Below the pieces are notes generated by a model. That model was not told the origin of the DNA. It saw nothing but the letters and a program-made list of their open reading frames with translations, and made no database searches. A stretch of DNA of 64,000 bases, from NCBI GenBank assembly GCA_937124585.1, contig CAKZKT010000017.1:1-64000 (forward strand), read 5' to 3'. The position numbers and the translations under genes are program-made. The first letter of the stretch is position 1; every line of letters begins with the position of its first letter. This DNA is from an uncultured Anaerolineae bacterium (GTDB taxonomy: Bacteria > Chloroflexota > Anaerolineae > CG2-30-64-16). Shown piece by piece: positions 22,868 to 38,378 of the stretch.

Positions 22868-22872
22868 TTCTT

Positions 22873-23808
22873 TCAATATCCTTTGTCCCAATCCACCTCG
22901 ATGTTGCGGGCGGCCGACTCGGAGATGTAGCAGTCGGTCTTGAGCAACTGGTGGATGGAGGTGGGCAGCAGCGGCGTGACCGGGCCATGCGTCACCAGAC
23001 GGGTGATCAGGCGTTGCCAGCTCGTCTGCGTGCCGTGCACGGTGAGGTTGTGGATGTCCATGCGATATTTGGCCGCGATCACCTCGGCCGGGCCGATGGT
23101 GAAGGCTTTCGGCGGCACGCGCGCGATGTCGCCGCTCATGCCGAAGCTGCCATGCAGCGAGTTCTGGGCCAATGTGAACGGGCTGAGCGTGACGATGCGC
23201 GGGCCGAAGGTCATCCACTCTTCCAGGCTGGCCGCCTGGAACTCCGGTGCGTCCGGTTCGATGAATGCCAGGTGGCCGGTCCAGCCCGGGCCGGTGTAGC
23301 AGGCATCGCCGCCGCCCAGATCGGCGATCATCTTGCCATAGTCGCGGTAGTTCTGGTTGGTCGGCCCGATGAATTGAGCTTCCGGCGGCCGCAGGTCCTC
23401 CTCGATCTGGGCGTAGAAATACTTCTTCATGGCATGAACGAAGCCCTGCGGCCATGTTTCTGGCGCGATCACGCCGTCCTCGTTGGCGTATTCGTCCATG
23501 GCGAAGGCGTACAGGTGCCGGCAGTTCACCCGAAAGCGGTTGATCAGCCGCGCGACGTGGCGATAGACCGGGCAGGGGTTCGGCAGGATCAGGACGATCC
23601 GCCGTCCGGCATCGGCCGCGGCCTTGATGCGGTGAAACATGTCGGTGACCCAGATGAACTCGATGTCGTCATCCTTTACGACCCGGATCTTGAAGTCGGG
23701 ATTCGGATGTTGCTCGATCTCTTCTCGTTTGATCTTTCGGCAGCGTTCCAAGGCCTCTTGATCACGAAAAGGCACGTAGCGCGAGGGGCTGTAGATGAAG
23801 TCGGTCAT
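22873..23808 (-). CDS. NagB-like (glucosamine-6-phosphate deaminase/isomerase fold) protein with altered active site
   Basis: 311 residues. AFAMDEYANEDG aligns with the NagB FNMDEYVG motif (Asp105 kept) and GPGWTGHLAFIEP with GVGNDGHIAFNEP. His179 and Glu184 are kept, but the catalytic Asp141 of E. coli NagB is replaced by Thr177. The phosphate loop (GLPTGGTP in NagB) reads LILPNPCPVYRH. It therefore has the NagB fold but probably not classic deaminase chemistry. CGGAG lies 9 nt before MTDFIYS. It lies between nagA and the ceramidase-like gene. Confidence 0.82.
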   Translation of the reverse strand: MTDFIYSPSRYVPFRDQEALERCRKIKREEIEQHPNPDFKIRVVKDDDIEFIWVTDMFHRIKAAADAGRRIVLILPNPCPVYRHVARLINRFRVNCRHLYAFAMDEYANEDGVIAPETWPQGFVHAMKKYFYAQIEEDLRPPEAQFIGPTNQNYRDYGKMIADLGGGDACYTGPGWTGHLAFIEPDAPEFQAASLEEWMTFGPRIVTLSPFTLAQNSLHGSFGMSGDIARVPPKAFTIGPAEVIAAKYRMDIHNLTVHGTQTSWQRLITRLVTHGPVTPLLPTSIHQLLKTDCYISESAARNIEVDWDKGY

Positions 23809-23850
23809 GGTTTCGTTCTCCGCAGAATGTTGGGTGTAGGGTCGTCGGTA

Positions 23851-23879
23851 GTAGAAGACGTTGCATGCAACGTCTCTAC
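23851..23879. repeat. Perfect palindrome at the nagA stop codon
   Basis: AGACGTTGCATGCAACGTCT (23856-23875) is a perfect 20-nt palindrome, extended by GTAG/CTAC flanks with one mismatch. The nagA stop codon lies in its right edge. Similar GTAGAGACGTTGCATGCAACGTC palindromes are, to my knowledge, dispersed in many photosynthetic and filamentous bacterial genomes. Confidence 0.8.
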
Positions 23880-25039
23880 AACGACGATGCCTGGTACAAT
23901 ACCTCTCCACTCGCAATAGTCATGCGCAGCTGCAGGTCTTGCGTCACGAGGATGATATCGGCGTCCATGTCGGCGGCCAGATATCCCTTTTTGTTCAGGT
24001 CCAGCACGCGCGCCGGCGTGCGTGCGCAGAGGATCGAGGCATCCAGGAGCGAACGGCCGAACTTGTGGACGGCATTTTGCAGACACCGGATAGGCGTCAG
24101 CGCGCTGCCGGAGAGGGCATCGTCCACGGTTCGCCGCACGCCCCGGTCGGCGGTCACGCTCACCTGCACGCCGGGATAGAGGCCCTCGTAGATGCCCGGC
24201 GGGTTGCCCGCACCTTTCACGCCATCGGTGACGAAGGCGACGCGGCCGAGGCCTTTGCAGCGCAGCGTTTTTTCGACCAGCAGGGGATGAACGTGCACCC
24301 CATCGGGGATGATCTCGACTGTGAGGCGGTCCTCCACCTGGATGTAATCGGTCAGGCCGGCTGGATAGACGCCAGGATCGGTTTGCGGCGGCGGATCGAA
24401 GGTGTCGTAGAAGTGCGTCACCAGGCTCAGCCCGGCATCCACGGCCTGCCGCGCCTGCTCGATGGTCGCCGCGCTGTGCGCCAGGCTGGTCACGATGCCG
24501 TGCTGCCGGCACCACCGGATGAAGTCCGTTGCGCCTGCGAGCTCTGGCGACACGTCCCAGATCGGGATGCGCCCCTGCGCGGCCGTGTAGAGCGCTTCGG
24601 TGGTCTCGACCGTGATCTTGGTCAGCGAATTGGCCGAACCGGCGCCCGTTTTGGCCAGGTAGGTGATCTCGGGCCGGAAGCCGATCAGGTTAGGAGTGCG
24701 CCGAAAGCCGTCAGTCTCGGCGAGGCCCCGCTGCATGACCGCGATGTTTTCCTGCGGCGAGCCGAGCAGCGTCGGCACGCAGGCAGTGGCGCCCGCGGCC
24801 GCCATGAGCCGGCTGTACTCGACCAGGCTGTCGTATTGGGCCATCACGTCGCGGATGCCGTGATTGTGCAGGTCAATCAGGCCGGGCAGCACGTAGCAGC
24901 CCGTGGCCATGATGACGTGCTCGCCCGGTGTGGGATGCAGATCAGGGCCGATGTGGGCAATCTGACCGGCCGCGATCTGCACATCGCACGGTGCCTCGAT
25001 GCGGTTGTAGTGCAGCACGATGCCATCTTTGATCAACAT
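23876..25039 (-). CDS. nagA: N-acetylglucosamine-6-phosphate deacetylase
   Basis: 387 residues, usual NagA length. Metal and catalytic landmarks are LPGLIDLHNHGIRD, WDVSPELAGA (Glu ligand), TSLAHSAAT (His), LVTHFYDTFDPPP (corresponds to THLYNAM), PDGVHVHP and the catalytic Asp in AFVTDGVKGAG. It deacetylates GlcNAc-6-P in the cytosol. The start MLIKDGIV was chosen by alignment with the family; a Met five codons upstream is possible and neither has a strong SD. It follows the two permease genes and precedes the NagB-like gene, so the operon suggests amino-sugar or peptidoglycan-fragment use. Confidence 0.9.
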   Translation of the reverse strand: MLIKDGIVLHYNRIEAPCDVQIAAGQIAHIGPDLHPTPGEHVIMATGCYVLPGLIDLHNHGIRDVMAQYDSLVEYSRLMAAAGATACVPTLLGSPQENIAVMQRGLAETDGFRRTPNLIGFRPEITYLAKTGAGSANSLTKITVETTEALYTAAQGRIPIWDVSPELAGATDFIRWCRQHGIVTSLAHSAATIEQARQAVDAGLSLVTHFYDTFDPPPQTDPGVYPAGLTDYIQVEDRLTVEIIPDGVHVHPLLVEKTLRCKGLGRVAFVTDGVKGAGNPPGIYEGLYPGVQVSVTADRGVRRTVDDALSGSALTPIRCLQNAVHKFGRSLLDASILCARTPARVLDLNKKGYLAADMDADIILVTQDLQLRMTIASGEVLYQASSL

Positions 25040-25060
25040 AGGCTTTGTTCCCATCTCGGT

Positions 25061-25112
25061 AGGGGCGCACGGCGTGCGCTCGTCGTCCCGTCGGCGCACA
25101 CCGTGCGCCCCT
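25061..25112. repeat. GC-rich inverted repeat before nagA
   Basis: AGGGGCGCACGGCGTGCGC and GCGCACACCGTGCGCCCCT are 19-nt arms with one mismatch around a 14-nt loop. Such AGGGGCGCACGG palindromes are a dispersed type in Chloroflexota and cyanobacteria as far as I recall. It lies between the DppC-type gene and nagA. Confidence 0.8.
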
Positions 25113-25127
25113 GCGCGATTGTTGCGC

Positions 25128-26039
25128 CTACCGGTTGAGGAGGCGCGGGTCGAGCGCATCGCGCAGGGCGTCACCGAGGAAGTTGATGGACAACACGACC
25201 GCAGTGATCAGGAGGCCGGGCGGTAGCCACAGCCACGGCATGCTCTCCAGAACGGTGATAGATTGCGCGTTCGTCAGCATGTTGCCCCAGGTGGCCGTCG
25301 GCATGCGCACGCCCAGGCCCAGGAAACTGAGACCGGCTTCGCTCAGGATCGCGCCGGCGATCAGGAAGGTGCCGGCCACGATGACGGGCGCGATGACGTT
25401 GGGCAGGATATGGCGGAACATGATGCGCAAGGGCGACGCGCCGATGCAGCGGCTCGCCATCACGAAGTCGCGCTCGCGCATGCTCAATGTCTCCCCGCGC
25501 ACCAGCCGGCACGTGCCGGTCCAGCCGAAGATGCCGATCACGAACATGATGTTGAAGATGCTAGGGCCGAGCACCGCCACCAGGGTGATAACGATGATGA
25601 AAGTGGGGATCGTCATCACCACATCGGTCAGGCGCTGGAGCCAGAAATCCACCCAGCGGCCGCTGAACCCGCTGATCAGCCCGATGACCGTGCCGATGGC
25701 GACGGCGATGCCGGCGGCGACCAGGCCCACCGACAGCGACACGCGGCCGCCCCAGATCAGGCGGCTCAGCACATCGCGGCCGGCATAGTCGGTGCCCAGC
25801 AGATGCGCAGAGCTGGGAGGCTTTTTGATGGCGGTCACATCCACCTCGGCCGGGTCGTATGGCGCGATGATGGGTGCTCCCAGCGAGGTCAGGCCGAGGA
25901 TGAGCAGGACCAGCGCGCCGATCACGGCCATGCGATGGCGCAGGAAACGGCGCAAGCTGCGTTTTAGCGGCGTGTCACGACTGGAGAGCAGGCGCCGCTC
26001 GCGCTCGTCGAGGTGTTGAAAATCATCTCTGTCGTTCAT
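25128..26039 (-). CDS. DppC/OppC-type ABC transporter permease
   Basis: 303 residues. After a charged N-terminus come RHRMAVIGALVLLILGLTSLGAPIIAPYDP, LGTDYAGRDVLSRLIWGGRVS, the EAA loop FVMASRCIGASPLRIMFRHILPN and the NFLGDALRDALDP terminus. It completes the heterodimeric channel with the DppB-type protein encoded 16 nt upstream. Its stop is about 90 nt from nagA, and transcription probably continues across the inverted repeat. Confidence 0.94.
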   Translation of the reverse strand: MNDRDDFQHLDERERRLLSSRDTPLKRSLRRFLRHRMAVIGALVLLILGLTSLGAPIIAPYDPAEVDVTAIKKPPSSAHLLGTDYAGRDVLSRLIWGGRVSLSVGLVAAGIAVAIGTVIGLISGFSGRWVDFWLQRLTDVVMTIPTFIIVITLVAVLGPSIFNIMFVIGIFGWTGTCRLVRGETLSMRERDFVMASRCIGASPLRIMFRHILPNVIAPVIVAGTFLIAGAILSEAGLSFLGLGVRMPTATWGNMLTNAQSITVLESMPWLWLPPGLLITAVVLSINFLGDALRDALDPRLLNR

Positions 26040-27038: not shown

Positions 27039-27179
27039 ACGTGCCAGGCACCTGACAGGGTGCCTGGCACGTCCGACGGCGCATCGTGGCCCCGTGCCAG
27101 GCACCTGACAGGGTGCCTGGCACGTCCGACGGCGCATCGTGGCCCCGTGCCAGGCACCTGATAGGGTGCCTGGCACGTA
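27039..27179. repeat. Tandem array of three 34-nt palindromes, 53-nt period
   Basis: Palindromes start near 27040, 27093 and 27146, with loops TGACAG, TGACAG and TGATAG. The 19-nt spacers are identical to one another (CCGACGGCGCATCGTGGCC) but unlike those at 11340-11532. The array lies 6 nt after the binding-protein stop codon and before the DppB-type gene. Confidence 0.95.
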
Positions 27180-27185
27180 TTATCC

Positions 27186-28976
27186 CTATTTCAGCGTCCA
27201 GGTATGCGGCGCCGTCCAGTTGTAGCCGCAGCCCAGCTTGAAGGTCGAAGCGTCCACCTTCGGCCCCATGGTCTGGAAGCTCTTGCCGATCCACAACGGG
27301 TAGGTCGGCAGGTCGGTATTGAGGATGCGGGTCATCTCGGTGATCAGCGGCTTGTACACCGCCGGATCGGCCGTGGCCAGCGCCTTCTCGAAGATCTCAT
27401 CGAACTTCGGATTGCAGTACTGCGTCGAGTTGTAGCCCTTGGGATACTCGAAGCCGCAGCGATGGACGGTGCCCAGGATGTCGAGCGGCACCCAGCGGGC
27501 CTGACCGCTGATGATCACGTCGAATTTGCCTTTGCCGTAAAACTCCGCGATGAAGTTGGCGAACTCGATGGGGGTGATCGTCGCCTTGACGCCGACTTTG
27601 GCCCACATCTGCTGCACGATCTCATACCAGGTCGGCGGCGTGCCCAACGCCACGAAGATCAGCTCCCAGTTGGCGTCCCAGCCGATCTCTTTCAGCAACG
27701 CCTTGGCCTTCTCCGGATCATAACCATAGGTCTTGATGTCCGGCGCACACAGGTCGCCCAGGCTCGGCGCGAGCGGACAGTTCCATTTAACCGTTGTGCC
27801 ATACGGGTCAACCGCTTTGATCAGGTTGTCCAGGTCGAGGGCGTGGATCAGCGCCTGGCGGAAGCGGGGATCCTGCATGGCCTTGAACTTGGGCTGTTCG
27901 GGCTTGTCCGCTTCTTTGTTGCCGCGATGGTAGTTGACGAACAGGACGTTCGGGACCACCGGATCGAGATAGACAAGCTCGACGCCGGGGATTTTCTTGA
28001 TGCGTTCCAGCTCGGCCACGGGCAGGCCCGCAGCGATGTCCACTTCGCCCTTCTCCAGCGCCAGCAGCCGCGTGTTGGCATCAGGAATTTTGATGTCGCG
28101 GATCACGTCTATCTTGGGCGCGCCGCGGAAGTACTTCGGGTTCGCCACGAGTTCGATGGACTCGTCGCCCTTGAACTCCTTCACGATGAAAGGTCCCGTG
28201 CCCGGATACCAGCGTTCGGTCACGAACTTGCTCTTGGTGAAGTCGGCCGGCGGGATGTCCTTGACCACGTGCTCGGGCACGATCGGGATCTGCGTCAGGG
28301 CATGGTTGAAGATGGAGCTGGCGTTGTTGAGCTGAAGAGTCACCTCGTAGTCGCCGTTGGCCGTCACGCCTGCCACGCTCGTTGCCTTGCCCTGATTCAC
28401 ATCCTCGCAGCCGACGATGACCTTCACGTTGGGGTATTGCATGGCGTTCAGGTCTTTCTGGCAGATGTAGTTGAAGGTGAAGACGACATCTTTGGCGGTG
28501 AACGGCGTGCCGTCGTGCCATTCCACGCCCTTCCGCAGCGTGAAGGTGTAGGTCTTGCCATCCGGCGATACGGTGTATTTCTCGGCGATGTCAGGTTCCA
28601 GGTCGAGCTTGGCGTTGTAGAAGACGAGGCGGCTCAGGCTGAGGAACATCCACTCGTCAATCTGGCCGCCGGTGATGTGGAACGGATCGCCGAACTTGCC
28701 GATGACGCTTTGCGCCCGGCGCAGCACCTTCTGGCCGGTGGCAGCGGGCGCAGCGGTTGGAGCCGGTGCCTTCGTTGGTTCGGGCGCTTTCGTTGCCTCG
28801 GGCGCCTTGGTTGGCTCCGGGGCTTTGGTGGCCGCGGGCGCCGCCGTGGCCGGCGCAGGTTGTGCCGGCGCAGGTTGTGCCGGCGCCGGGGTCGGTTGTG
28901 CGCCGCACGCGCTCAGCACCAGGCCGAGCAGGACGATCAGGGTCAACAGGACGGTTGGGGTGAACGCTTTGCGCAT
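27186..28976 (-). CDS. ABC transporter solute-binding lipoprotein, family 5
   Basis: 596 residues. Signal peptide with lipobox VLSAC (Cys24), then a long linker of Ala/Pro/Thr/Lys built from TKAPEP-type hexamers. The SBP_bac_5 core has SPDGKTYTFTLRKGVEWHDG, FTAKDVVFTF, GTGPFIVKEFKGD, FRQALIHALDLDNLI and LLKEIGWDANWEL. Operon position before permeases, nagA and a NagB-like gene suggests an amino-sugar or muropeptide ligand (inference). AAGGAG lies 11 nt before the ATG. A near-complete extended SD sits about 85 nt further upstream. Confidence 0.94.
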   Translation of the reverse strand: MRKAFTPTVLLTLIVLLGLVLSACGAQPTPAPAQPAPAQPAPATAAPAATKAPEPTKAPEATKAPEPTKAPAPTAAPAATGQKVLRRAQSVIGKFGDPFHITGGQIDEWMFLSLSRLVFYNAKLDLEPDIAEKYTVSPDGKTYTFTLRKGVEWHDGTPFTAKDVVFTFNYICQKDLNAMQYPNVKVIVGCEDVNQGKATSVAGVTANGDYEVTLQLNNASSIFNHALTQIPIVPEHVVKDIPPADFTKSKFVTERWYPGTGPFIVKEFKGDESIELVANPKYFRGAPKIDVIRDIKIPDANTRLLALEKGEVDIAAGLPVAELERIKKIPGVELVYLDPVVPNVLFVNYHRGNKEADKPEQPKFKAMQDPRFRQALIHALDLDNLIKAVDPYGTTVKWNCPLAPSLGDLCAPDIKTYGYDPEKAKALLKEIGWDANWELIFVALGTPPTWYEIVQQMWAKVGVKATITPIEFANFIAEFYGKGKFDVIISGQARWVPLDILGTVHRCGFEYPKGYNSTQYCNPKFDEIFEKALATADPAVYKPLITEMTRILNTDLPTYPLWIGKSFQTMGPKVDASTFKLGCGYNWTAPHTWTLK

Positions 28977-29060
28977 GGTTGCTGCTTCTCCTTTTGTATG
29001 TTTGTGGATCGAGCGGATACCCGACGAGAACAGCTCTGGCAAATCTGCGTATGATGTGTC

Positions 29061-29103
29061 ATCACCTCCTTCTGGGCCAGGCAGACGTGCTTGCGCACCT
29101 GGC
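29061..29103 (-). promoter_or_regulatory. Hairpin and extended SD-like site in the binding-protein leader
   Basis: Minus strand: GCCAGG/CCTGGC arms with an inner GTGC/GCAC stem (29076-29103) follow the sialidase-like stop by about 10 nt. AAGGAGGTGAT (29061-29071) comes next, a full match to the 16S anti-SD complement. An ATG directly after it opens a reading frame of about 39 codons that overlaps the binding-protein start out of frame; a leader peptide is possible but unproven. Confidence 0.4.
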
Positions 29104-29113
29104 GAGCCGTCGG

Positions 29114-30166
29114 CTACCGTGTCCAGGCAGCCGTTGGCACGATCTTCAGCTTCATGTCCACCAGGTTCGGCCCACCCGGCTTGCCCACGTAGTAGGTCAG
29201 CAGCGTCGCGTCGCCATGGAACGTGATGCTGGTGTAGCAATATGAGCGGCTTTCGTCCGCTTCGACGTATTTGAAGCCGTGCCAGCTCTCGCCGTTGTCG
29301 CTGCTGACCGCCGCCACGAGCGGCGTGCGCCAGTTGAACTGGCTGTTCCACGGCACATCGCCGACGACCGGCGGGCACGTTCGCCGATCGTTGTAAAGGA
29401 TCAACAGGTCGTTGCTGCCGGGCAGACGGGCGGCCGAGGCGGGCGAGATCGGCGCAATGAGCCCGGTCGGCGCCAACTCGCTCCACGACTCGCCGTCGTC
29501 GAACGAGCGGCAGGCGTAGATGCGCTGCTTGTCGGTGCGCATCCACATCCACAGGCTGCCGTCTGCGCACTGCACCACGCCCGGTTCGCCCGCGCCGACG
29601 CGGCCGGGCAGATCGAGATACGAGCACAGCCGGCGCCAGCTGCGACCGTCATCGTCCGAGCCGAAGACGCTGCCCAACGAGTGGTAGTGCTCGCCGATAC
29701 AGCGGAACACGGGCAGCAGCACCCGACCGCTGCGCGTCTGGATCAGGCGATTGTTGTTGGCGCCGATGTAGCCCTCCTCGGGCGTCGCCGGGATCGGCGC
29801 GCTCCATGTCCGGCCGTCGTCGCCGGAGCGCCGCACGAACATGTGGCAGTCCTGCGATTCGTGATTTTTGATCGCGAATCCGAAGAGCAGGTCGCCGCTG
29901 CGCAGGCGCAGGAACGAAACGCTCATGACGTTGCACCGGCCGAGATTCTCCTGGAACAGGGCGGGCGCATCCCAGGTGTAGCCGCCATCGCGCGAGCGCC
30001 GCGCCCAGATCTCGCCCTGCGAGTGATCGTCCGGACCGCTGAAGCGGCTCCACGCCATCAGCAGGCTGCCGTCGCCGAGGCTGACGATATCACCTTCGCC
30101 GTTGCGTGGATTTCCCGGCCCGACGGGATTGATGATTTCTTCATGCCATGTCTCGACCGTGTTCAT
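29114..30166 (-). CDS. Sialidase-like BNR/Asp-box propeller protein
   Basis: 350 residues with at least five Asp-box repeats: SRDGGYTWD, SGDDGRTWS, SDDDGRSW, SFDDGESWS and SSDNGESW, plus the GARP-like NPRNGEGD opening. It fits the six-bladed GH33-like or BNR-2 propeller, with no signal peptide. Sialidase activity is not certain, since many such proteins act on other sugars. AAGGAG lies upstream of the ATG, which is inside the preceding gene (26-nt overlap), so it is the last gene of a coupled four-gene operon. Confidence 0.85.
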   Translation of the reverse strand: MNTVETWHEEIINPVGPGNPRNGEGDIVSLGDGSLLMAWSRFSGPDDHSQGEIWARRSRDGGYTWDAPALFQENLGRCNVMSVSFLRLRSGDLLFGFAIKNHESQDCHMFVRRSGDDGRTWSAPIPATPEEGYIGANNNRLIQTRSGRVLLPVFRCIGEHYHSLGSVFGSDDDGRSWRRLCSYLDLPGRVGAGEPGVVQCADGSLWMWMRTDKQRIYACRSFDDGESWSELAPTGLIAPISPASAARLPGSNDLLILYNDRRTCPPVVGDVPWNSQFNWRTPLVAAVSSDNGESWHGFKYVEADESRSYCYTSITFHGDATLLTYYVGKPGGPNLVDMKLKIVPTAAWTR

Positions 30167-30608
30167 CGGCTCTCTGCTCCTTGCGGCGGATGACCAGCTT
30201 GCAGCGCGCCTCGGCCACCTGTGATTGATCGTAGAGGTACTCGTAGCCCAGCGGCTCCAGCACGCGACGATACAGCACGTCGCAGTGACGGCAATAGTCG
30301 GCGTACGGCTCGAGGTGCGTCCACGCCAGCAGCCGCCCCTTCGACGGACAGTGATGCATGGTGATCGAGAATTCGCCCGCGTCCTCGTCCAGCTCCATCG
30401 TGAAGTCGGCCGCCTCCTCGTTTAGCGTGTGCGACCAGTAGAGCCAGCAGCCGCGAATGCCGTTGGCCACGACCAGGTCGTGCAGGTTGCCCAGGAAGTG
30501 GTCGCTGAGATAGTTCCAGAAGTCCAGAACGGCCTCTTTGCCGCCGCGCTGGTCGAGATATTTGAACAGCTCGCTGTAGGCTGCGATGAATTCCGTGCAC
30601 GAGATCAT
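30141..30608 (-). CDS. Small unknown protein A (paralogue of its neighbour)
   Basis: 155 residues, no signal peptide. An N-terminal helical part (FIAAYSELFKYLDQRGGKEAVLDFW) is followed by a beta-rich part with ITMHHCPSKGRL, YADYCRHCDVLYRRVLEPLG and CKLVIRRK. The order of elements matches the next protein upstream. The CP motif, later Cys-x-x-Cys and final beta strand recall the L-2-amino-thiazoline-4-carboxylate hydrolase-like family (PF14196), but this is a weak impression. Its start overlaps the upstream stop (ATGA). Function unknown. Confidence 0.7.
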   Translation of the reverse strand: MISCTEFIAAYSELFKYLDQRGGKEAVLDFWNYLSDHFLGNLHDLVVANGIRGCWLYWSHTLNEEAADFTMELDEDAGEFSITMHHCPSKGRLLAWTHLEPYADYCRHCDVLYRRVLEPLGYEYLYDQSQVAEARCKLVIRRKEQRADEHGRDMA

Positions 30609-31069
30609 GGGGACCTCCGGCTGAAGCGCACGGTGCTGCGTCCTGTCCGGTCATCGTAGGCCAGCAGCTCTGCCCGGAAGGGTGTGCCCTCGCAAATCGC
30701 CTCGTTCACCGTGCGGGTCGTCTCGTAGAAAAGCGGCGCAACGGGCCGGTCGTGCTGGCGCATGTGCATGACCGCCGGACACGCTGCCACGTGGATGGTG
30801 AGCGCATCGTCGGTCAGCTCGAACGTGACGTCGCCGCCCTCGATCTGGTAGATGCGTGCGAAATGTTCCTGCAGGGCAGGGAGGCCGCGCTGGAGGATAT
30901 CCTGTTTCAGGGGGCCGTAGAAAGCCGTGGCGAACTGGCGCAGGTATGCGCGCACGGCATCGGCGCCATAACGTTCTTCGAGATAGATCAGCGCGGTGCT
31001 GAGCGCGGCGTGGAAATCTTTGTGCAGATACGGGTTGTCTGCGGCTGTCCGCAGCATGATCTGTTTCAT
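30605..31069 (-). CDS. Small unknown protein B (paralogue of its neighbour)
   Basis: 154 residues. DFHAALSTALIYLEERYGADAVRAYL parallels the helical N-terminus of the downstream protein, then DVTFELTDDALTIHVAACPAVMHM and a final STVRFSRR strand. It keeps the CP motif but lacks the CRHC of its partner, so the two may form an unequal heterodimer. ATGA overlaps link it to the genes on both sides. No recognised family; function unknown. Confidence 0.7.
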   Translation of the reverse strand: MKQIMLRTAADNPYLHKDFHAALSTALIYLEERYGADAVRAYLRQFATAFYGPLKQDILQRGLPALQEHFARIYQIEGGDVTFELTDDALTIHVAACPAVMHMRQHDRPVAPLFYETTRTVNEAICEGTPFRAELLAYDDRTGRSTVRFSRRSP

Positions 31070-32859
31070 AGGCTTGCACTCACCGATTGGCCGAAAATGC
31101 GGCCCGTTGCGACCCGTTGGGCGATCTCATCCACATGGCCCAGGCGCCGGCCGTAGGTGCCGAAGGCGTTCACCAGGGCAATGCCGTCTGCGCCGGCGCG
31201 GTAGCAGCGCAGCGCGCCGCGGTCGTATTCCGTCGGGTCGAGCGTGCTGTTGACGTGCGGCGCATCGGCGTATTCTTCGCCGGGCAGGGGGTCCTCGTCG
31301 GGCCGGGTTTCCTGTTGCCAGGCGGGGTCGGCCCGTTTGCCGCCCGGCACGTCTACCGACTCCTGATCCAGGATGGCGATCAGGGGAACGTTGTGGCGCC
31401 GCGCCAGCGCCACATAGGGCGCGATGTCCCAGGCCTGCACGCAGATGAAGTCCAGAGCGCCGCCGGCCAGCCATGCCTCCAGGTCAATTCGCTGCTCGGC
31501 CAGGCCGCAGAACGCATGGTAGTCGTCCACGACGCTGGCGCTGAGCGCGATGCGGCGGCCCCGGGCGCGTGCCACGGCATCCAGCCGCCGGCGGATGTCC
31601 GCGATGAAGGTGGTGAGCACTTCGCAACCGTGCCGCTGCGGATCGGCCACCGGCGGCCAGCGGGTGAAATCCAGGTTGATGCCGTCCACATCGTAATTGC
31701 CGGCCAGCTCGGCCAGCAGATCGAGCACGAAGCCCCGCGCCGCCGGCAGGGCGTAATCCCACTTTGCCTTGCCCGGCACGCGCAGTTCCGGATGATCGCG
31801 CCAGAAGCAGCCGTTCAACAGCGCTTCGACCGCCTGGCCCAGGGGGCCATTGGTGAAAAAGAGGTTCATGCGCAGGCCGGCATGAAATTCCATGCCTGCG
31901 GCGTGACAGGCGTTGGCCAGCACGCGCATCCCTTCCTGGCCGTTCGCACAGGCCCAGCGCAGGTAGTCGCACGCCCGGCGGTCGCCCCGGCGCAGCAACG
32001 GCCACTGCGCGTCGCTCACCGCCTCGCCGACCAGGCCAGTCACCCGGCTCGGCCAGTTGGCGACCCCCGTCGCCGGCGACTGCAGGACGATGGCTCGCAC
32101 ATCGCTGTTTCGGAAAGTCTGCGGGTAGCGGGCGTCGCAGTTTTCGCCCGGATTGCTCGCCTGCCAGTACGGGCTGTAGCCGTCATGAAAGAACCACACG
32201 CGTTTGTGAGCGGGATCGGTGCCGTCCTGCGCGCATGCGGCGACCTGGCGTTCGCTCAGCTTCATCAGGCACAGCGCCGAGATGCTGCCGCGCACCAGGC
32301 CCCAGGGCTGCGAGCAAAAGGTGCCGTAGGGCACGCGCAGGCGCAGTCGGCGGCCATCCAGCCGCGCGCAGGTCCAGTAGCACATCACCTCGACACCCGA
32401 CGGCCCGAGCGGCCGGCCATGCCGCGTCCCCCGTTCCGGAAACACATGCACGAAGGCCGGGTCGCCATCCAGGGCCACGTCCACACCGTCGAGCGGCTGC
32501 GTCAGCACCGGTCTCAGGTCAAGCCGCGGCACGCCGATCCATAGCGCGTACCAGCCGGACAGGTCGAGCGGGATTTCGATCTCCGGCGGGACGGCGCAGG
32601 GACCTTCGTCGCGCGCCAGGTCGTTGAGCACGAGGAGCCGGCCGCTCTGGCCGTCGGCCAGGCGGTAGGGGCGCGCCTGCCAGCGTCCGCGCTGCGGCTC
32701 GACCGACCAGGTCGCCGGAGGCGCCAGGGCCACCATGTCGCGCAGGATCACCGCGTCGCCCGCGGTCAGCGCTGTGGTGCGTGCGTGTTGCAGATCGCTG
32801 AAAATGCGGCCGCCAGGGCAAAAGTCCGGTTGCGGTTGTGTGAGATTTTGATCTCTCAC
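31066..32859 (-). CDS. Glycosidase-like TIM-barrel protein (GHL10-type)
   Basis: 597 residues. The N-terminal third is beta-rich (EIEIPLDLSGWYALWIGVP, LRLRVPYGTFCSQP). The C-terminal half is a TIM barrel with GMEFHAGLRMNLFF, NYDVDGINLDFTRWPP, where DGINLDF is typical of GHL10/GH13-like barrels, IALSASVVDDYHAF, LDFICVQAWDIAPYV and GADGIALVNAFGTY. No signal peptide. It heads a four-gene operon transcribed divergently from the DeoR gene, with a structured leader of about 165 nt. Substrate unknown. Confidence 0.75.
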   Translation of the reverse strand: MRDQNLTQPQPDFCPGGRIFSDLQHARTTALTAGDAVILRDMVALAPPATWSVEPQRGRWQARPYRLADGQSGRLLVLNDLARDEGPCAVPPEIEIPLDLSGWYALWIGVPRLDLRPVLTQPLDGVDVALDGDPAFVHVFPERGTRHGRPLGPSGVEVMCYWTCARLDGRRLRLRVPYGTFCSQPWGLVRGSISALCLMKLSERQVAACAQDGTDPAHKRVWFFHDGYSPYWQASNPGENCDARYPQTFRNSDVRAIVLQSPATGVANWPSRVTGLVGEAVSDAQWPLLRRGDRRACDYLRWACANGQEGMRVLANACHAAGMEFHAGLRMNLFFTNGPLGQAVEALLNGCFWRDHPELRVPGKAKWDYALPAARGFVLDLLAELAGNYDVDGINLDFTRWPPVADPQRHGCEVLTTFIADIRRRLDAVARARGRRIALSASVVDDYHAFCGLAEQRIDLEAWLAGGALDFICVQAWDIAPYVALARRHNVPLIAILDQESVDVPGGKRADPAWQQETRPDEDPLPGEEYADAPHVNSTLDPTEYDRGALRCYRAGADGIALVNAFGTYGRRLGHVDEIAQRVATGRIFGQSVSASL

Positions 32860-32909
32860 TGATATCCTCTATCATACGAGGACGGCGCATTCACAACCAG
32901 TTCGCGCCA

Positions 32910-32968
32910 GGCCCTTCGGATTGGGCGTAGCTGCTCACGACCCGCCTACGACGAAGAATCCGAGGGCC
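32910..32968 (-). promoter_or_regulatory. Stable hairpin in the leader of the TIM-barrel operon
   Basis: GGCCCTTCGGATT (32910-32922) pairs with AATCCGAGGGCC (32957-32968) with one bulged base, enclosing a second CGTAG/CTACG stem. It lies between the predicted minus-strand transcription start near 33026 and the start codon at 32859, in the 301-nt gene-free stretch 32860-33160. No riboswitch class was recognised. Confidence 0.6.
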
Positions 32969-33025
32969 ACGATGATCTCCGAGTGTGTCCGTATGCAAAC
33001 AGCGCGCTTCGGTGGTCGAACCGAT

Positions 33026-33091
33026 TGTTTGAAGTATAGCACGGATGTTAGGATGTGTCAAAAATCAAACAGTTATTGACACGATCAAACA
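33026..33091. promoter_or_regulatory. Three TCAAACA/TGTTTGA heptamers, likely DeoR operators
   Basis: TGTTTGA at 33026-33032 (inverted), TCAAACA at 33065-33071 and TCAAACA at 33085-33091. The last two are 20 nt apart (two helical turns); the third lies in the spacer of the plus promoter and the first at the start of the minus transcript. DeoR-family repressors commonly bind repeated short TG-TTT-type sites in such divergent regions. Confidence 0.6.
33033..33061 (-). promoter_or_regulatory. Minus-strand sigma-70-type promoter
   Basis: TTGACA (33056-33061) and TATACT (33033-33038) with 17-nt spacing on the minus strand, directing the TIM-barrel/unknowns/sialidase-like operon. It lies back to back with the DeoR promoter, the two -35 elements only 14 nt apart. 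Confidence 0.85.
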
Positions 33092-33103
33092 TCTGGGTAT
33101 ACT
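33076..33103 (+). promoter_or_regulatory. Plus-strand sigma-70-type promoter for deoR-kinase
   Basis: TTGACA (33076-33081) and TATACT (33098-33103) with 16-nt spacing, about 57 nt before the DeoR start codon. Identical hexamers to the divergent promoter. Confidence 0.85.
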
Positions 33104-33160
33104 GTAGTCAACTGTGAATACACAATATCGCACATCATCTCGTGAATGGGGGCAGCGACG

Positions 33161-34042
33161 ATGTTGCCAGAAGAACGGCGGTCGAAGATCCAACAACAGC
33201 TGGCGCAGCAGACAACGGTTACCATCGCCGGGCTCGCCGAGGCGCTCGGCGCATCGGAGATGACGATCCGCCGCGATCTGGCGGAACTGGAGGCGCGCGG
33301 CGTCTGTCAGCGCATCCACGGCGGCGCGATCAGTCTGCGCGTGCAGCAGTATCGCGTGTCGGCCTATCCTCCCTACGGGGATCGCGAGCGCCGACAGATG
33401 CACGAGAAGACGGCGATCGGTCGGGCCGCGGCCAGCCTGGTGCAGCCCGGCGAGGTCATTGCCATTGATTCGGGCACGACTGCTGCCTATTTTGCCCAGG
33501 CGCTGCGCTCCATTTACCCGCTCACGGTCATCACCAATTCGTTGCGCGTGCTCGATCAGCTCCACGATGTGCCGCAGATCGCCCTGATCTGTCCGGGCGG
33601 TGCGCTTTCGCTCGAGGACCGGAGCCAGGCCAGCGGCGACCTCTCCTTCGTGGGGCCGTTGGCGGTGGCGGCGCTGCGCAACTTCCGGCCGGCCAGGGCT
33701 TTCATCACGACCTCTGGGCTGACGGTGGCGGACGGGATCACGAACGCGGCCCTCTTCCAGGCGGAGATTAAGCGCACCCTGATCGAGATTGCCGAGGAGG
33801 CAATCTTGCTCGCCGATCACACGAAGTTCGGCCAGGCGACGGGCTTTCTGGTGACCGGTGTGAAGGCTTTTCGTCGGATGATCACCGATGTCGCCGCGCC
33901 GGCGCAGGACGTGGCCGCGCTGCGGAGTCAAGGGATCGAGGTGATCACCGTCGAGCCGGCGCCCGATGCGCAGCCGTTGCGGCCGTCAGTGCTCACCTTG
34001 TCCGGTGCGACGTCTCAGGTCGTGCTGCGCAACGCAGGCTGA
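33161..34042 (+). CDS. DeoR/GlpR-family transcriptional repressor
   Basis: 293 residues. N-terminal winged HTH (VTIAGLAEALGASEMTIRRDL, about residues 20-40) and RIHGGA, followed by the sugar-phosphate-sensing DeoRC domain with AIDSGTTAAYFAQAL, VITNSLRVLDQL, GGALSLEDRSQAS, FITTSGLTVADGITNA and LLADHTKFGQATGF. It senses a phosphorylated sugar, probably the product of the kinase 19 nt downstream. MLPEERR was chosen because GGGGG precedes it by 8 nt; the ATG five codons earlier has no SD. Likely controls itself, the kinase and the divergent operon through the heptamer sites. Confidence 0.93.
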   Translation: MLPEERRSKIQQQLAQQTTVTIAGLAEALGASEMTIRRDLAELEARGVCQRIHGGAISLRVQQYRVSAYPPYGDRERRQMHEKTAIGRAAASLVQPGEVIAIDSGTTAAYFAQALRSIYPLTVITNSLRVLDQLHDVPQIALICPGGALSLEDRSQASGDLSFVGPLAVAALRNFRPARAFITTSGLTVADGITNAALFQAEIKRTLIEIAEEAILLADHTKFGQATGFLVTGVKAFRRMITDVAAPAQDVAALRSQGIEVITVEPAPDAQPLRPSVLTLSGATSQVVLRNAG

Positions 34043-34061
34043 TGGGAAGTGAGATGGCCAC

Positions 34062-35546
34062 ATGAACCTGCTCATCGGCGTTGACCTGGGCACGACCGGC
34101 TGCAAGGCGGTTGTCTACGATGAGGCCGGAACGGTGCTGGGCGAAAGCTATCTCGAACTCGACCTCATCACCCTCTCGGATGTGATGATCGAACAGTCGC
34201 CCGACGCCTGGTGGGAGGCGATGGTGCGCGCCGTCGGCCTGGCGCTCGCTGCCGCCCATGCGGATCGCGAGGCCGTGCGCGGCATCGCGATCAGCTCGCA
34301 GGGCATCGCCTTCGTCCTGCTCGATGCCCAGGATCGGCCGTTGGGCAATGCGATCAGCTGGCTGGACGGTCGCGCGACTGTGGAATGTGCCCGGATTCTG
34401 GCTCGCTATTCGGCCCGAAGCCTGTTTCAGATCACGGGAAAACGAGCTGCGCCGTTTTATGTGTTGCCCAAGCTGCTCTGGGTGCGGGCGCAGCAGCCGG
34501 AGGTGTGGCGTCGGGCGCGCCGCCTGCTGATGGCACATGACTATCTGGTGTATCGCCTGTGCGGCGAACGCGTCACGGATCACTCGCTGGCCGGCGGCAC
34601 TTTGTTGTATGACCTTCATCGGCAGGACTGGAGCCAGGAGTTGCTGGATGCGTTCGACATCCCGGCCGACCTGCTGCCTCCGGTGTGCTGGGCCGGCACC
34701 CGGGTCGGCACGCTGCGGCCAGAGGCAGCCGCGGCGCTGGGATTGACGACCGCTGTGGTGGTGGCGGTCGGCGGGCAGGATCAGAAGTGCGCGGCGCTCG
34801 GCGCCGGGCTTGTGGCGGGCACAGCGTCGGTCTCGCTGGGCACGGCATCCGCTGTGGTCCAGCTTCTGGATCGGCCGGCGACGGATCCGCAGCTGCGCAT
34901 CCCGACATTTGCCTTCGTCCAGCCGGCGTGCTGGGTGCTGGAGGGGGTCGTTGCCACGGCCGCGGGCTGCTTGCGCTGGTATCGGGATACACTGGCCCCG
35001 GGCGCCTCCTACGCCGACCTGGACGCGGAGGCGGCAGGCGCGCCGCCGGGCAGCGATGGCCTCTATTTCTATCCCCATTTGAGCGGCGCGAGCAGCCCCC
35101 ATTGGCTCAGCGCGGGCCGCGGCGCGCTCCATGGCCTGAGCCTAGCGACGAGCCGCAGCCATCTGACGCGCGCGCTCATGGAAGGCGTGGCGTTTCAGAT
35201 TCGGGAGAATCTGGCGATCACCGAGGAGATCGGCGGGCCGGTGGCACAGGTGATCCTCTTCGGCGGCGGCGCCCGCAGCGGGCTGTGGCGGGCGATCATC
35301 GGGGATGTGCTGGCGCGGCCCGTGGTGTGGCCACGCACGATGGAAACCGCCAGCGGAGGCGCGGCCATGCTGGCGGGAACAGGCAGCGGTGTGTTCGCGA
35401 CGCTGGATGAGGCGCGCGGCCGTATGCTGGCGCCGCTCGGCCGTCGCGAACCGGATGCCGCGGTCGTCGCCCTCTACGTGCAACACTACGAGCGCTATCG
35501 TCGGGTCGAGGCCGCGCTTCTCAGCCTGGCCTCAGAACATCCGTGA
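34062..35546 (+). CDS. FGGY-family carbohydrate kinase (xylulokinase-like)
   Basis: 494 residues, standard FGGY length. Phosphate-1 motif IGVDLGTTGCKAVVYDEAG, then ISWLDGRATVE, catalytic Asp in GGQDQKCAALGAG, SLGTASAVVQLL, FYPHLSGASSPHW, LTRALMEGVAFQIRE and adenosine motif FGGGARSGLWRAIIGD. It phosphorylates a pentulose or similar sugar, with exact specificity open. Co-transcribed with the DeoR regulator, whose inducer may be the kinase product. Its stop is separated from a convergent gene by only a 25-nt hairpin. Confidence 0.92.
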   Translation: MNLLIGVDLGTTGCKAVVYDEAGTVLGESYLELDLITLSDVMIEQSPDAWWEAMVRAVGLALAAAHADREAVRGIAISSQGIAFVLLDAQDRPLGNAISWLDGRATVECARILARYSARSLFQITGKRAAPFYVLPKLLWVRAQQPEVWRRARRLLMAHDYLVYRLCGERVTDHSLAGGTLLYDLHRQDWSQELLDAFDIPADLLPPVCWAGTRVGTLRPEAAAALGLTTAVVVAVGGQDQKCAALGAGLVAGTASVSLGTASAVVQLLDRPATDPQLRIPTFAFVQPACWVLEGVVATAAGCLRWYRDTLAPGASYADLDAEAAGAPPGSDGLYFYPHLSGASSPHWLSAGRGALHGLSLATSRSHLTRALMEGVAFQIRENLAITEEIGGPVAQVILFGGGARSGLWRAIIGDVLARPVVWPRTMETASGGAAMLAGTGSGVFATLDEARGRMLAPLGRREPDAAVVALYVQHYERYRRVEAALLSLASEHP

Positions 35547-35571: not shown

Positions 35572-36399
35572 CTATGCATTCAGTCGCGCGCTCAGCTGCT
35601 CCATGTGGCGGACGAAGGCCGGGAACGCGATTTCGGCGTCCGGCAGATACGGATGCCACCGCCTTTCCCATTCCAGCGTGTAGTAGCCGGAATAGCCGGC
35701 CGCAGTCAGCAGGTCGAGGCAGTCGGCCAGCGGCAGCAGCCCCTCGCCGCACAGGCAAAGCCGATCCCGGCCGGTGACGTGATCGCGACGCGCGTCTTTC
35801 CAATGCGTGTTGATCACGCGCGCCCCGATCTGGCTCCAGGTGAACGCGGGCGTCTCCTGGCCGGCCCAATAGGGATGCTTCACATCCCAGCAAAGGCCGA
35901 CCCGGTCGGGAGCGGTGCCCTCGATCAGCGCCAGGATGTCGGCGCTGTGTGTCCAGGCATCGTGCGTCTCGACGGCCAGCTGCACGCTCGTGCCGGCGGT
36001 GATTTCCAGCATCTGCGCCAGCAGTTCGCGGCCGCGGGCCAGCCCGTCGTCGCGGGAGCGGCCGGCCAGGTCACCGCCGAAGACGCGGATTTGCGCGGCG
36101 CCGAAGATGGCGCACAGTGCGACCAGGCGACGGATCTCATCGAGCGCCCGCTCGCGCTCCGCCTCGCCGTGCCAGACCAGCCGCGCGCTGGCCGAAAAGC
36201 AGGAGACCGCCAGCCCGACGTCGGCCAGGCGGCGGGCCGAGGCCGGGGCGTCCGTGTTGAACTCCGGCAGTTCCCACATGTTGAAGGTGCCGCGAAGGCC
36301 GCGGAAATCCACAGCCTGGAAGCCGTAGGCCGGCAAGCGGTCGAGGATCATCGGCAGGTCCCAGTCGAGACAGCCGAGGGTGCTGGTGGCGTATTTCAT
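35572..36399 (-). CDS. Sugar-phosphate isomerase/epimerase (AP-endonuclease-2-like TIM barrel)
   Basis: 275 residues. MKYATSTLGCLDWDLPMILDRLPAYGFQAVDFRG is the usual barrel start, with metal-site segments QIRVFGGDL, QLAVETHDAWTHS, VGLCWDVKHPYW, VINTHWKDAR and YTLEWERRW. The family isomerises or epimerises sugars or inositol derivatives in the cytosol. It is the last gene of the LacI-led minus operon and is 134 nt after the heparinase-like gene. Only a weak SD (GGAAAAG) precedes the ATG. Confidence 0.9.
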   Translation of the reverse strand: MKYATSTLGCLDWDLPMILDRLPAYGFQAVDFRGLRGTFNMWELPEFNTDAPASARRLADVGLAVSCFSASARLVWHGEAERERALDEIRRLVALCAIFGAAQIRVFGGDLAGRSRDDGLARGRELLAQMLEITAGTSVQLAVETHDAWTHSADILALIEGTAPDRVGLCWDVKHPYWAGQETPAFTWSQIGARVINTHWKDARRDHVTGRDRLCLCGEGLLPLADCLDLLTAAGYSGYYTLEWERRWHPYLPDAEIAFPAFVRHMEQLSARLNA

Positions 36400-36493
36400 G
36401 GGCACTTTTCCGGTGAATGAGATCCAGATGGTATCATGCGATGCCGGTCTGGCCAATCGGACACGGGCGAGGATCACGCAGTCTCGCAACCGG

Positions 36494-36533: not shown

Positions 36534-38378
36534 TCACCGCGGGCTGAGGTGCAAGCGAAAGCGGCGCGTGCCGGCCGGCAGCGCCACCGCCAGCCGCGTC
36601 AGCACGCCGTCCCGTTCGTTGGCGCGACAGGCCTCGGCCAGGCTGGCGACGGTGAATGTCGCGGTCGCCGGTTCGGTGATCGTCATGCTGAGGGCGGAAC
36701 GCTCGCCGATGATCTGTGCTGTCGCGCCGGTAATCTGCACCGGGAACCAGGTGACGAACGCCTCTTCGATCGGCAGCGCGGCGCCGTCGAAGTCGAACAG
36801 ATCCTCCAGCATTACTTCGCCGTTCTGGGCGTTCAGCCGCAATGTGCGTCGCGCCAGGCACAGGCCGGGCAGGTTGTAGGCATGGTGGAAGTCAATGGCG
36901 ACCGTTTTCTCGTCGGGCCCGGTGCTGTACGTGACAATCGTCCCGTGATATTGTTGACAGCCGCCGAACTCCGGGCCGGGCGCCTGCAATTGACCGCCGA
37001 TGACGGGCACGCCATGGCCGAACGAGTTGCAGAAGATGTTCTCGTAGCGCGCCTGCCGAAAGTAGTCTTTGCTGTATTTGCCGCGGCCGGGATCGCACAG
37101 CAGGCTCTCGCCGTCCACATGGTAGATGAAGACGGCAATGTCGGTGTGGCTGTGGTGGCCGTCGTTGTGGCCGGCTTTGGCAGCCAGTGCCACGGGGCGG
37201 CCGTCGGCCGTCTGTGCCACCAGCCTGACTACACCGGAGGCGGGCAGATGGACGTCTTGCCGCGCGGCGGCCGGGAATGGGCTTTGCTGACCGTCCCACC
37301 ACGCTGCATCGCGCATCACGATGGCGAGCTTGGCGGTCGGGACGCCGCGGCCCTGCGGCAGTTGGGGCGGATTGGCCAGTCCCTGGAGGTCGGTCACGCC
37401 GGTGCGTGTGGCCAGGCGCCGGACGATGCCCGGCGAAAGGGATGTGACTTCCTCGGCGTCGCCGAAGTTGAGGTAGCGGCCCGGCGAGAGGGCTGCGGCC
37501 AGCGGATAGCGGGCGATGTCTCGCAGTCGTGGGGCCGCCAGCAGGTCGAGCGCGCCGGCCGTTCGCTCGCGCAGCAGTTCGGCCACGGTCACATAGTACA
37601 GCAGGCCGTAGTTCCAGTAGCCGATTCCCTCGATGGAGCCGCCGTCCGCCTCGAAGCCGGTGGCGATGTAGGCCTCGAAGCCTTCCAGCACCTGTTCCAT
37701 GGCCTCGGCCAGGGTCTGTTCGTCGCGCTCCAGCCGGAGGAAGGCCAGCGCAATCGAGCCATTGCAGACGCCGTTCCAATTCAGCGCGCCCCGGTACCAC
37801 CAGTGCTTGCTGCCATAGGCCAGGTACGGCTTGAAGATGCGTCGCGCTACCTCCTGGCGCACGCGCTGCACCACCTCTGGCGCCAGTCGGTCGCCCACCA
37901 GGTACACGGTTTCGGCCAGGCTGGCGCCCGTCTCGGCGCAGAAGAGGTCAATGCTGTCGGGCTCGCGCGTCAGCGCGGTATGGGCGCCGAACGGCTTCTG
38001 TCTGGGCGAGGGCTTCAGATCCCAGTACTCTGGCCCCTGTTCTTCGTGCGCGGGCAGCACCCACGAGGTCTCCTCGCAGATGCTCCAGAGGAGATCATGG
38101 ACAACGTCTCGCATCGCGTCGTCGCCGAGGAGCATTTCGAACACGGCGCGCGTGAGCATGGTGCGCCTGGCGAAGTAGACGCGCTCGTAGTTGCGTCGTT
38201 CGCCGGTGTGCTCGAACTGGCGATAGAGCGTATAGGTGGTCTGTGGAATGTCGCTTAAATCGGGCGCGGCCCTGCGCAGCAGATCCCGCACGATCGGCGT
38301 GGCGGCCGAACAGCGCACCGCTTCGGCCAGGTTTTCGGTAGGGGCATTGATGGCAAGAAGGGATTTGAGCTCATTCAT
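36534..38378 (-). CDS. Heparinase II/III-like polysaccharide lyase
   Basis: 614 residues. The alpha-barrel part carries HWWYRGALNWNGVCNGSIA and ADGGSIEGIGYWNYGL, typical of heparinase II/III-like (PL12/15/21-type) enzymes. The beta-sandwich part carries AAKAGHNDGHHSHTDIAVFIYHVDG, where the paired histidines match the catalytic region, and LCDPGRGKYSKDYF. No signal peptide, so it may act on imported uronic-acid oligomers. No clear SD before the ATG. It lies behind a cupin and a full importer under a LacI regulator, forming one uptake-and-cleavage unit. Confidence 0.85.
   Translation of the reverse strand: MNELKSLLAINAPTENLAEAVRCSAATPIVRDLLRRAAPDLSDIPQTTYTLYRQFEHTGERRNYERVYFARRTMLTRAVFEMLLGDDAMRDVVHDLLWSICEETSWVLPAHEEQGPEYWDLKPSPRQKPFGAHTALTREPDSIDLFCAETGASLAETVYLVGDRLAPEVVQRVRQEVARRIFKPYLAYGSKHWWYRGALNWNGVCNGSIALAFLRLERDEQTLAEAMEQVLEGFEAYIATGFEADGGSIEGIGYWNYGLLYYVTVAELLRERTAGALDLLAAPRLRDIARYPLAAALSPGRYLNFGDAEEVTSLSPGIVRRLATRTGVTDLQGLANPPQLPQGRGVPTAKLAIVMRDAAWWDGQQSPFPAAARQDVHLPASGVVRLVAQTADGRPVALAAKAGHNDGHHSHTDIAVFIYHVDGESLLCDPGRGKYSKDYFRQARYENIFCNSFGHGVPVIGGQLQAPGPEFGGCQQYHGTIVTYSTGPDEKTVAIDFHHAYNLPGLCLARRTLRLNAQNGEVMLEDLFDFDGAALPIEEAFVTWFPVQITGATAQIIGERSALSMTITEPATATFTVASLAEACRANERDGVLTRLAVALPAGTRRFRLHLSPR

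Follow-up and report, generated by a model that had tools for sequence, protein, structure and literature searches.

What do two small proteins do that are encoded back to back between a barrel glycosidase-like gene and a sialidase-like gene, and that belong to no annotated family? This question is raised by a locus on contig CAKZKT010000017.1 (assembly GCA_937124585.1) of an uncultured Anaerolineae bacterium, of which positions 1 to 64,000 were analyzed; this whole stretch is called the window here. The two proteins are referred to as A and B. They almost never occur apart, and the gene directly upstream of them is often that of a pyruvate aldolase. We propose that the two assemble into a metal-binding hetero-oligomer. 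It would probably be an enzyme whose site is composite, and it would act in the breakdown of sugars, amino sugars or sugar acids beside the aldolase. We give this reading a little less than an even chance. The genes in question are the following.

31066-32859, minus strand: barrel protein, 597 amino acids, GTG start (open reading frame list, family search)
30605-31069, minus strand: small protein A, 154 amino acids (open reading frame list, alignment, AlphaFold2 (AF2) model)
30141-30608, minus strand: small protein B, 155 amino acids, with the motif YCRHC (open reading frame list, alignment, AF2 model)
29114-30166, minus strand: BNR_2 sialidase-like propeller protein (family search, five Asp-boxes)

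An earlier note on this DNA had described a chain of coupled genes facing a DeoR and an FGGY gene, and the open reading frame coordinates confirmed this description. In the minus-strand order barrel, A, B, BNR_2, the barrel gene and A overlap by 4 nucleotides (ATGA at 31066-31069), the stop of A and the start of B again by 4 (ATGA at 30605-30608, minus strand), and B and the BNR_2 gene by 26. Translation of the pair in a fixed ratio, as assumed in that note, may follow from these overlaps but is not visible in the sequence itself.

The relation between A and B was determined by sequence and structure comparison. BLASTP revealed 29% identity over 84 amino acids (E 9e-10), and a profile-profile alignment covered 140 columns with 96.5% probability (E 7e-10). 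The single-chain AF2 models, with a predicted local distance difference test score of 93 for A and 90 for B, showed the common order HHHH-EE-HH-EE. Judged by alignments and models, A and B are true paralogues with one fold. The paralogy claimed in the earlier note thus stands; the length of 155 residues given there for both holds for B only. Searches of Pfam and NCBIfam with single A and B proteins yielded nothing useful, and neither protein has a model there. Profiles of A and B gave only scattered, unrelated weak matches among the PDB sequences; therefore, the fold was not placed by sequence alone. Foldseek comparison of the models with the PDB retrieved the same proteins for both queries, namely TRAPP subunits Bet3, Trs31 and Trs33, BcsD, the regulators MopR, PoxR and DmpR, and H-NOX. 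The best E-values were 2.6e-4 for A and 2.6e-3 for B at template modelling (TM) scores of about 0.45-0.57. These matches are weak but concordant and point to the H-NOX/V4R/TRAPP fold superfamily for both predicted structures. YxSxR, the heme motif of H-NOX, was not found in A or B, and neither was assigned to the heme-binding H-NOX proteins. The claim that the small proteins resemble no sugar enzyme has to be qualified by this fold and by weak matches to ATC_hydrolase (PF14196; L-2-amino-thiazoline-4-carboxylate hydrolase).

The pairing of A and B was investigated in 80 loci, the best-scoring of 209 from one scan of genome contigs. A lies immediately upstream of B in 75 of the 80. The exact 4-nucleotide overlap occurs in 64 of these 75 pairs, compared to 16 of 218 (7%) other adjacent operon pairs in the same loci, and is beyond chance. 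Both genes are present in 24 of 24 searched genomes behind the loci. Profile searches free of pattern bias in 392 further genomes, a sample of one phylum, found A and B in the same four genomes (Fisher p 1e-9). Two of these four hold a divergent A-B subfamily which keeps HxDFH, CP[AS], YCxHC, the last Cys and the 4-nucleotide overlap; a gene of the DHDPS family lies 14 nucleotides upstream of one such pair. Over 66 loci, the distances among A proteins followed those among B proteins with r 0.58 (permutation maximum 0.28). The A-B pair is one unit whose members are almost never apart. Homologues always occurring singly and far from sugar genes, or structures without similarity, would have spoken against the earlier note, and both are contradicted by these results. 

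Hosts of the pair are Chloroflexi, planctomycete, lentisphaerate, armatimonadete, bacteroidete and clostridial genomes. In the window's own phylum A or B was detected in 1 of 301 genomes, which is the genome of the window itself. The spread is patchy and transfer is therefore likely; plasmid and phage records contained no match to the pair. In the planctomycete GWF2_42_9 (G319; L063, L066, L072, L075, L080) seven complete A-B pairs are present; for five of these, a DHDPS gene was seen either immediately upstream or separated by a single short gene. A lone B without A is encoded at L121:7963-8484 (G767:C95); upstream of it lie genes for an FG-GAP protein and for a GHL10-like barrel which, by eye, resembles the barrel of the window.

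Which gene accompanies the pair? A DHDPS-family gene is located directly upstream of A in 28 of 58 operons tested, and an HpcH/HpaI gene in 5 of 58. At other operon positions DHDPS was found in only 6 of 125 cases (p 1e-11 versus directly upstream). Alignment of the partner DHDPS proteins showed that the aldolase Lys and Tyr are kept. Counted over whole loci, the 80 contained DHDPS (36), ceramidase-like (17), SDR (16), DegT (11), FGGY (10), HpcH (10), NagB-like (8) and NagA-like (7) genes. Of this neighbor set, FGGY and the ceramidase-, NagA- and NagB-like members are present in the window. DeoR was found in 1 of the 80 loci. The conserved partner of the pair is a pyruvate aldolase and not DeoR/FGGY. 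Co-occurrence of the pair with DeoR and FGGY genes, which the earlier note had named as a check, did not stand up to this count, and these genes were dropped as its defining partners. Of 80 families at more distant operon positions, the 25 most frequent included no dehydratase family, a result that is suggestive only. In three Clostridia loci (L042:3107-7932, L057:5758-10435, L067:493-5202) a gene for a PurL-type formylglycinamidine synthase lies 27-55 nucleotides upstream of A-B. An amidine-forming PurL-type enzyme beside relatives of a hydrolase of an amidine ring may be chance or a hint.

Conserved residues were located in alignments of both proteins. In A, H16, D18, F19 and H20, which form the motif HxDFH near the N-terminus, were invariant in 50 of 50 proteins. 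E77 and P98 were also invariant, H102 was nearly so, and C97 of the CPA motif (C97-A99) was kept in 41 of 50. B showed invariant C54, C87, C106, H108, C109 and C136 across 44 proteins; C4 and the motifs C87-P-S and Y105-C106-x-H108-C109 were invariant as well. The different Cys content of the two proteins noticed earlier, with CRHC in one of them, was thus borne out by the YCRHC of B, and the later Cys residues of B have no equivalent in A. The mean distance was 0.49 among B proteins versus 0.99 among A proteins. The locus scan employed short peptide patterns from B, and the conservation of B is thus partly selected. However, among 26 B proteins found without the N-terminal pattern, 25 begin like MISCTEFIPAYSELF; the exception, L064, has a mis-set start or a broken frame. 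The most conserved block is N-terminal in both proteins (residues 11-20 of A and 1-10 of B). If the variable tail of B is set aside, these blocks were the least certain parts of the single-chain AF2 models (about 68-71).

Because A and B are paralogous, have one fold, are almost never apart and stand in sugar catabolic operons, a heteromer is the simplest reading and is likely. We infer enzymatic activity and its substrate as follows. A and B would be two diverged copies of one small fold of the H-NOX/V4R/ATC-hydrolase type and the subunits of one hetero-oligomer. The Cys/His cluster of B (C87, C106, H108, C109, C136) probably binds zinc; at least three of its positions seem to match the invariant Cys residues of ATC hydrolases. 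A lacks those Cys residues and would present its invariant HxDFH at the N-terminus. Since the N-termini are the most conserved and yet the least certain parts of the single-chain models, and since DmpR provides a precedent, we propose arms packed on the partner, probably becoming ordered on each other, and a composite active site with the metal center from B and HxDFH from A. The complex may act on the sugar acid that the neighboring aldolase uses or releases, for instance by dehydration, isomerization or ring opening. Of the earlier idea of a heterodimeric enzyme for a sugar product, the pair, the common fold and the sugar operon context are thus retained, and DeoR/FGGY as its partner is given up. 

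Several observations weigh against this proposal. The link to ATC hydrolase is below threshold, and the Foldseek E-values are modest (3e-4 to 3e-3, TM about 0.5). Besides an enzyme, the superfamily includes proteins that only sense, carry or serve as scaffolds. At L121, B occurs without A. No aldolase was found near the pair in the window, the genome having DHDPS and HpcH genes elsewhere, and about half of the loci are without an identified aldolase, partly since contigs end.

The fold in particular leaves room for a hetero-oligomeric ligand binder instead of an enzyme. Such a complex would sense or carry the aldolase substrate or a reactive aldehyde product and pass it on or tune the enzyme. 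The V4R domains of DmpR, MopR and PoxR, which are among the fold matches, bind small molecules without catalysis, and a generic carrier or sensor could cope with the different folds of the neighboring aldolase (DHDPS, HpcH, class II). However, the invariant His, Asp and Cys residues are typical of metal sites and exceed the needs of a hydrophobic ligand pocket, and neither A nor B has an attached DNA-binding or output domain. We consider the ligand binder unlikely. The roles of the two subunits could also be unequal, B alone being an ATC-hydrolase-like enzyme and A a stabilizing or regulatory pseudo-subunit derived from the duplication. The Cys pattern is preserved in B, which also diverges more slowly than A, and the B copy at L121 has no A beside it. 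A mere prop would not need the invariant HxDFH, E77 and P98 or the near-invariant H102 of A, and HxDFH is kept even in the divergent subfamily. We hold a B-only enzyme to be quite improbable.

It would be different if the pair were a passenger that merely travels with catabolic islands and whose role, for instance in stress or of a toxin-antitoxin-like kind, has nothing to do with sugars. The patchy spread (1 of 301 genomes of the phylum to which the window belongs, 4 of 392 of another) would agree with this, as would the PurL-type gene preceding the pair in three Clostridia loci. A passenger would not be expected to keep a strict place after DHDPS (28 of 58), to occur in several copies per genome, each with its own DHDPS, or to be coupled co-directionally inside an operon, and the absence of matches in plasmid and phage records speaks against it as well. 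We regard it as very unlikely. The composite-site metalloenzyme thus remains our preferred reading. A bolder version of it is possible but doubtful: an undescribed hetero-oligomeric metalloenzyme of two diverged H-NOX/V4R-fold subunits that share an active site could perform a missing step, such as the dehydration or isomerization of a sugar acid, of an undescribed aldolase-based sugar pathway across many uncultured phyla. In any case, the near-obligate pair, for which no models exist, marks a catabolic module that is invisible to current annotation. Were the pair shown to be an enzyme, sugar chemistry would be added to the roles of a fold that has mostly been met in sensing and traffic, and several 'ceramidase/sialidase/DegT/DHDPS' islands of unknown substrate would gain a handle.

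In the window, the chain is divergent from the DeoR/FGGY genes, with a gap of about 286 bp between them.

33146-34042, plus strand: DeoR-family repressor (family models)
34062-35546, plus strand: FGGY kinase, scoring above the NCBIfam xylulokinase (XylB) cut-off (family models)
33061-33033, minus strand: sigma-70-like promoter of the barrel-A-B-BNR chain, TTGACA-17-TATACT, 11 of 12 consensus matches
33076-33103, plus strand: sigma-70-like promoter of deoR-fggy, TTGACA-16-TATACT, 11 of 12 consensus matches
33064-33091: direct repeat ATCAAACA, two copies starting at 33064 and 33084, 20 bp apart, between and over the two promoters

A stretch of 601 bp contained three sigma-70-like sites, compared to 0.2 expected from shuffled sequences. 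The ATCAAACA repeats are a candidate DeoR operator, and together with the divergent promoters they would fit joint DeoR control of both sides.

The BNR protein scored 101.7 bits with PF13088 (cut-off 31.4) and belongs to this propeller family. The barrel aligned with the GH156 exosialidase EnvSia156 over 159 residues (E 1.4e-12) and is, on this alignment, a distant relative of GH156 exosialidase and of Cwp19. It differs from EnvSia156 at the catalytic acid, His134 being replaced by Phe, and was not assigned to GH156; the general base Asp14 falls outside the aligned stretch. By eye, no signal peptide was seen at the start of the barrel or the BNR protein, and cleavage of sugars inside the cell after uptake is therefore likely. 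Opp-type transporters would import the sugars, the barrel and BNR proteins would cleave them, and A-B would then act on them. Sialic acid catabolism was considered in view of the GH156 match, the common BNR proteins and the NagA- and NagB-like genes. It was not adopted because the GH156 His is lost and because the partner DHDPS proteins score higher with DHDPS-type and other aldolases than with N-acetylneuraminate lyase.

Further genes of the surroundings are the following.

35572-36489, minus strand: xylose-isomerase-like TIM barrel (AP_endonuc_2; family search)
36534-38378, minus strand: heparinase II/III-like protein (family search)
23876-25174, minus strand: NagA-like amidohydrolase (best PDB match E 7e-28)
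22873-23916, minus strand: distant NagB-like (glucosamine-6-phosphate deaminase) protein (Pfam search without match)
21539-22870, minus strand: Ceramidase_alk-like protein, true start near 22867 (Pfam search)

Family search also placed a cupin gene beyond FGGY. Besides Opp-type transporter genes, the wider minus-strand cluster contains genes for a DUF2961 protein and for a propeller of the oligogalacturonate-lyase-like kind. A tandem repeat (27040-27178; 53-bp unit, 2.6 copies, 98% match) lies between the OppA-like gene and the OppB-like gene. The longest open reading frames at 27186-29627 (OppA-like lipoprotein) and 21539-23455 (ceramidase-like) extend past the true starts, which lie further in.

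How does the pair compare with known systems? Among the open-licence PMC papers searched, none described an obligate pair with overlapping genes linked to pyruvate aldolases, and those on ATC hydrolase, V4R and GH156 contained nothing on A-B. By predicted fold A and B would stand with the H-NOX/V4R/TRAPP proteins, and by sequence in no curated family. The TRAPP pairs Bet3-Trs31 and Bet3-Trs33 resemble A-B in fold and in being heterodimers of two different proteins with this fold. TRAPP and BcsD differ in their roles in membrane traffic and cellulose export, and a Cys/His cluster like that of B is not known there. The V4R phenol sensors DmpR, MopR and PoxR match in fold and would be alike in having a domain for small molecules and, close to the C-terminal hairpin, a zinc site rich in Cys. 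In DmpR, the V4R sensory domain binds zinc via three Cys and one Glu, and the two N-terminal regions of the dimer are intertwined (PMC7264223). In contrast to the proposed A-B complex, these sensors are homodimeric and fused to AAA+ regulators, and their zinc Glu/Cys pattern is not identical to that of B: compared with the DmpR ligands C151, E172, C177 and C185, B has Cys at comparable motif ends, and equivalents of E172 and C177 are unclear.

HNOB, V4R and ATC hydrolase have been described as similar, the last two sharing three Cys (PMC5847659). PF14196 was the family most often matched by relatives of A and B, always below its cut-off of 28.1 bits (best E 1.3e-3 for B relatives and 2.6e-3 for A relatives); A and B of the window gave no match to it. 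In 13 sampled PF14196 proteins C88, C108, D111 and C137 (L085 numbering) were invariant. The hhalign program paired C88 and C108 with C87 and C106 of B, and C137 matched C136 by spacing only. C87, C106 or C109, and C136 of B are spaced like the PF14196 Cys set, the Asp has no clear match, and A lacks the set. The known ATC hydrolase is not described as a two-gene pair and acts in a cysteine context, whereas A-B stands in a sugar context. The likeness would lie in the CP/Cys motif of B and its later Cys positions, and A-B perhaps works like ATC hydrolase, by ring opening.

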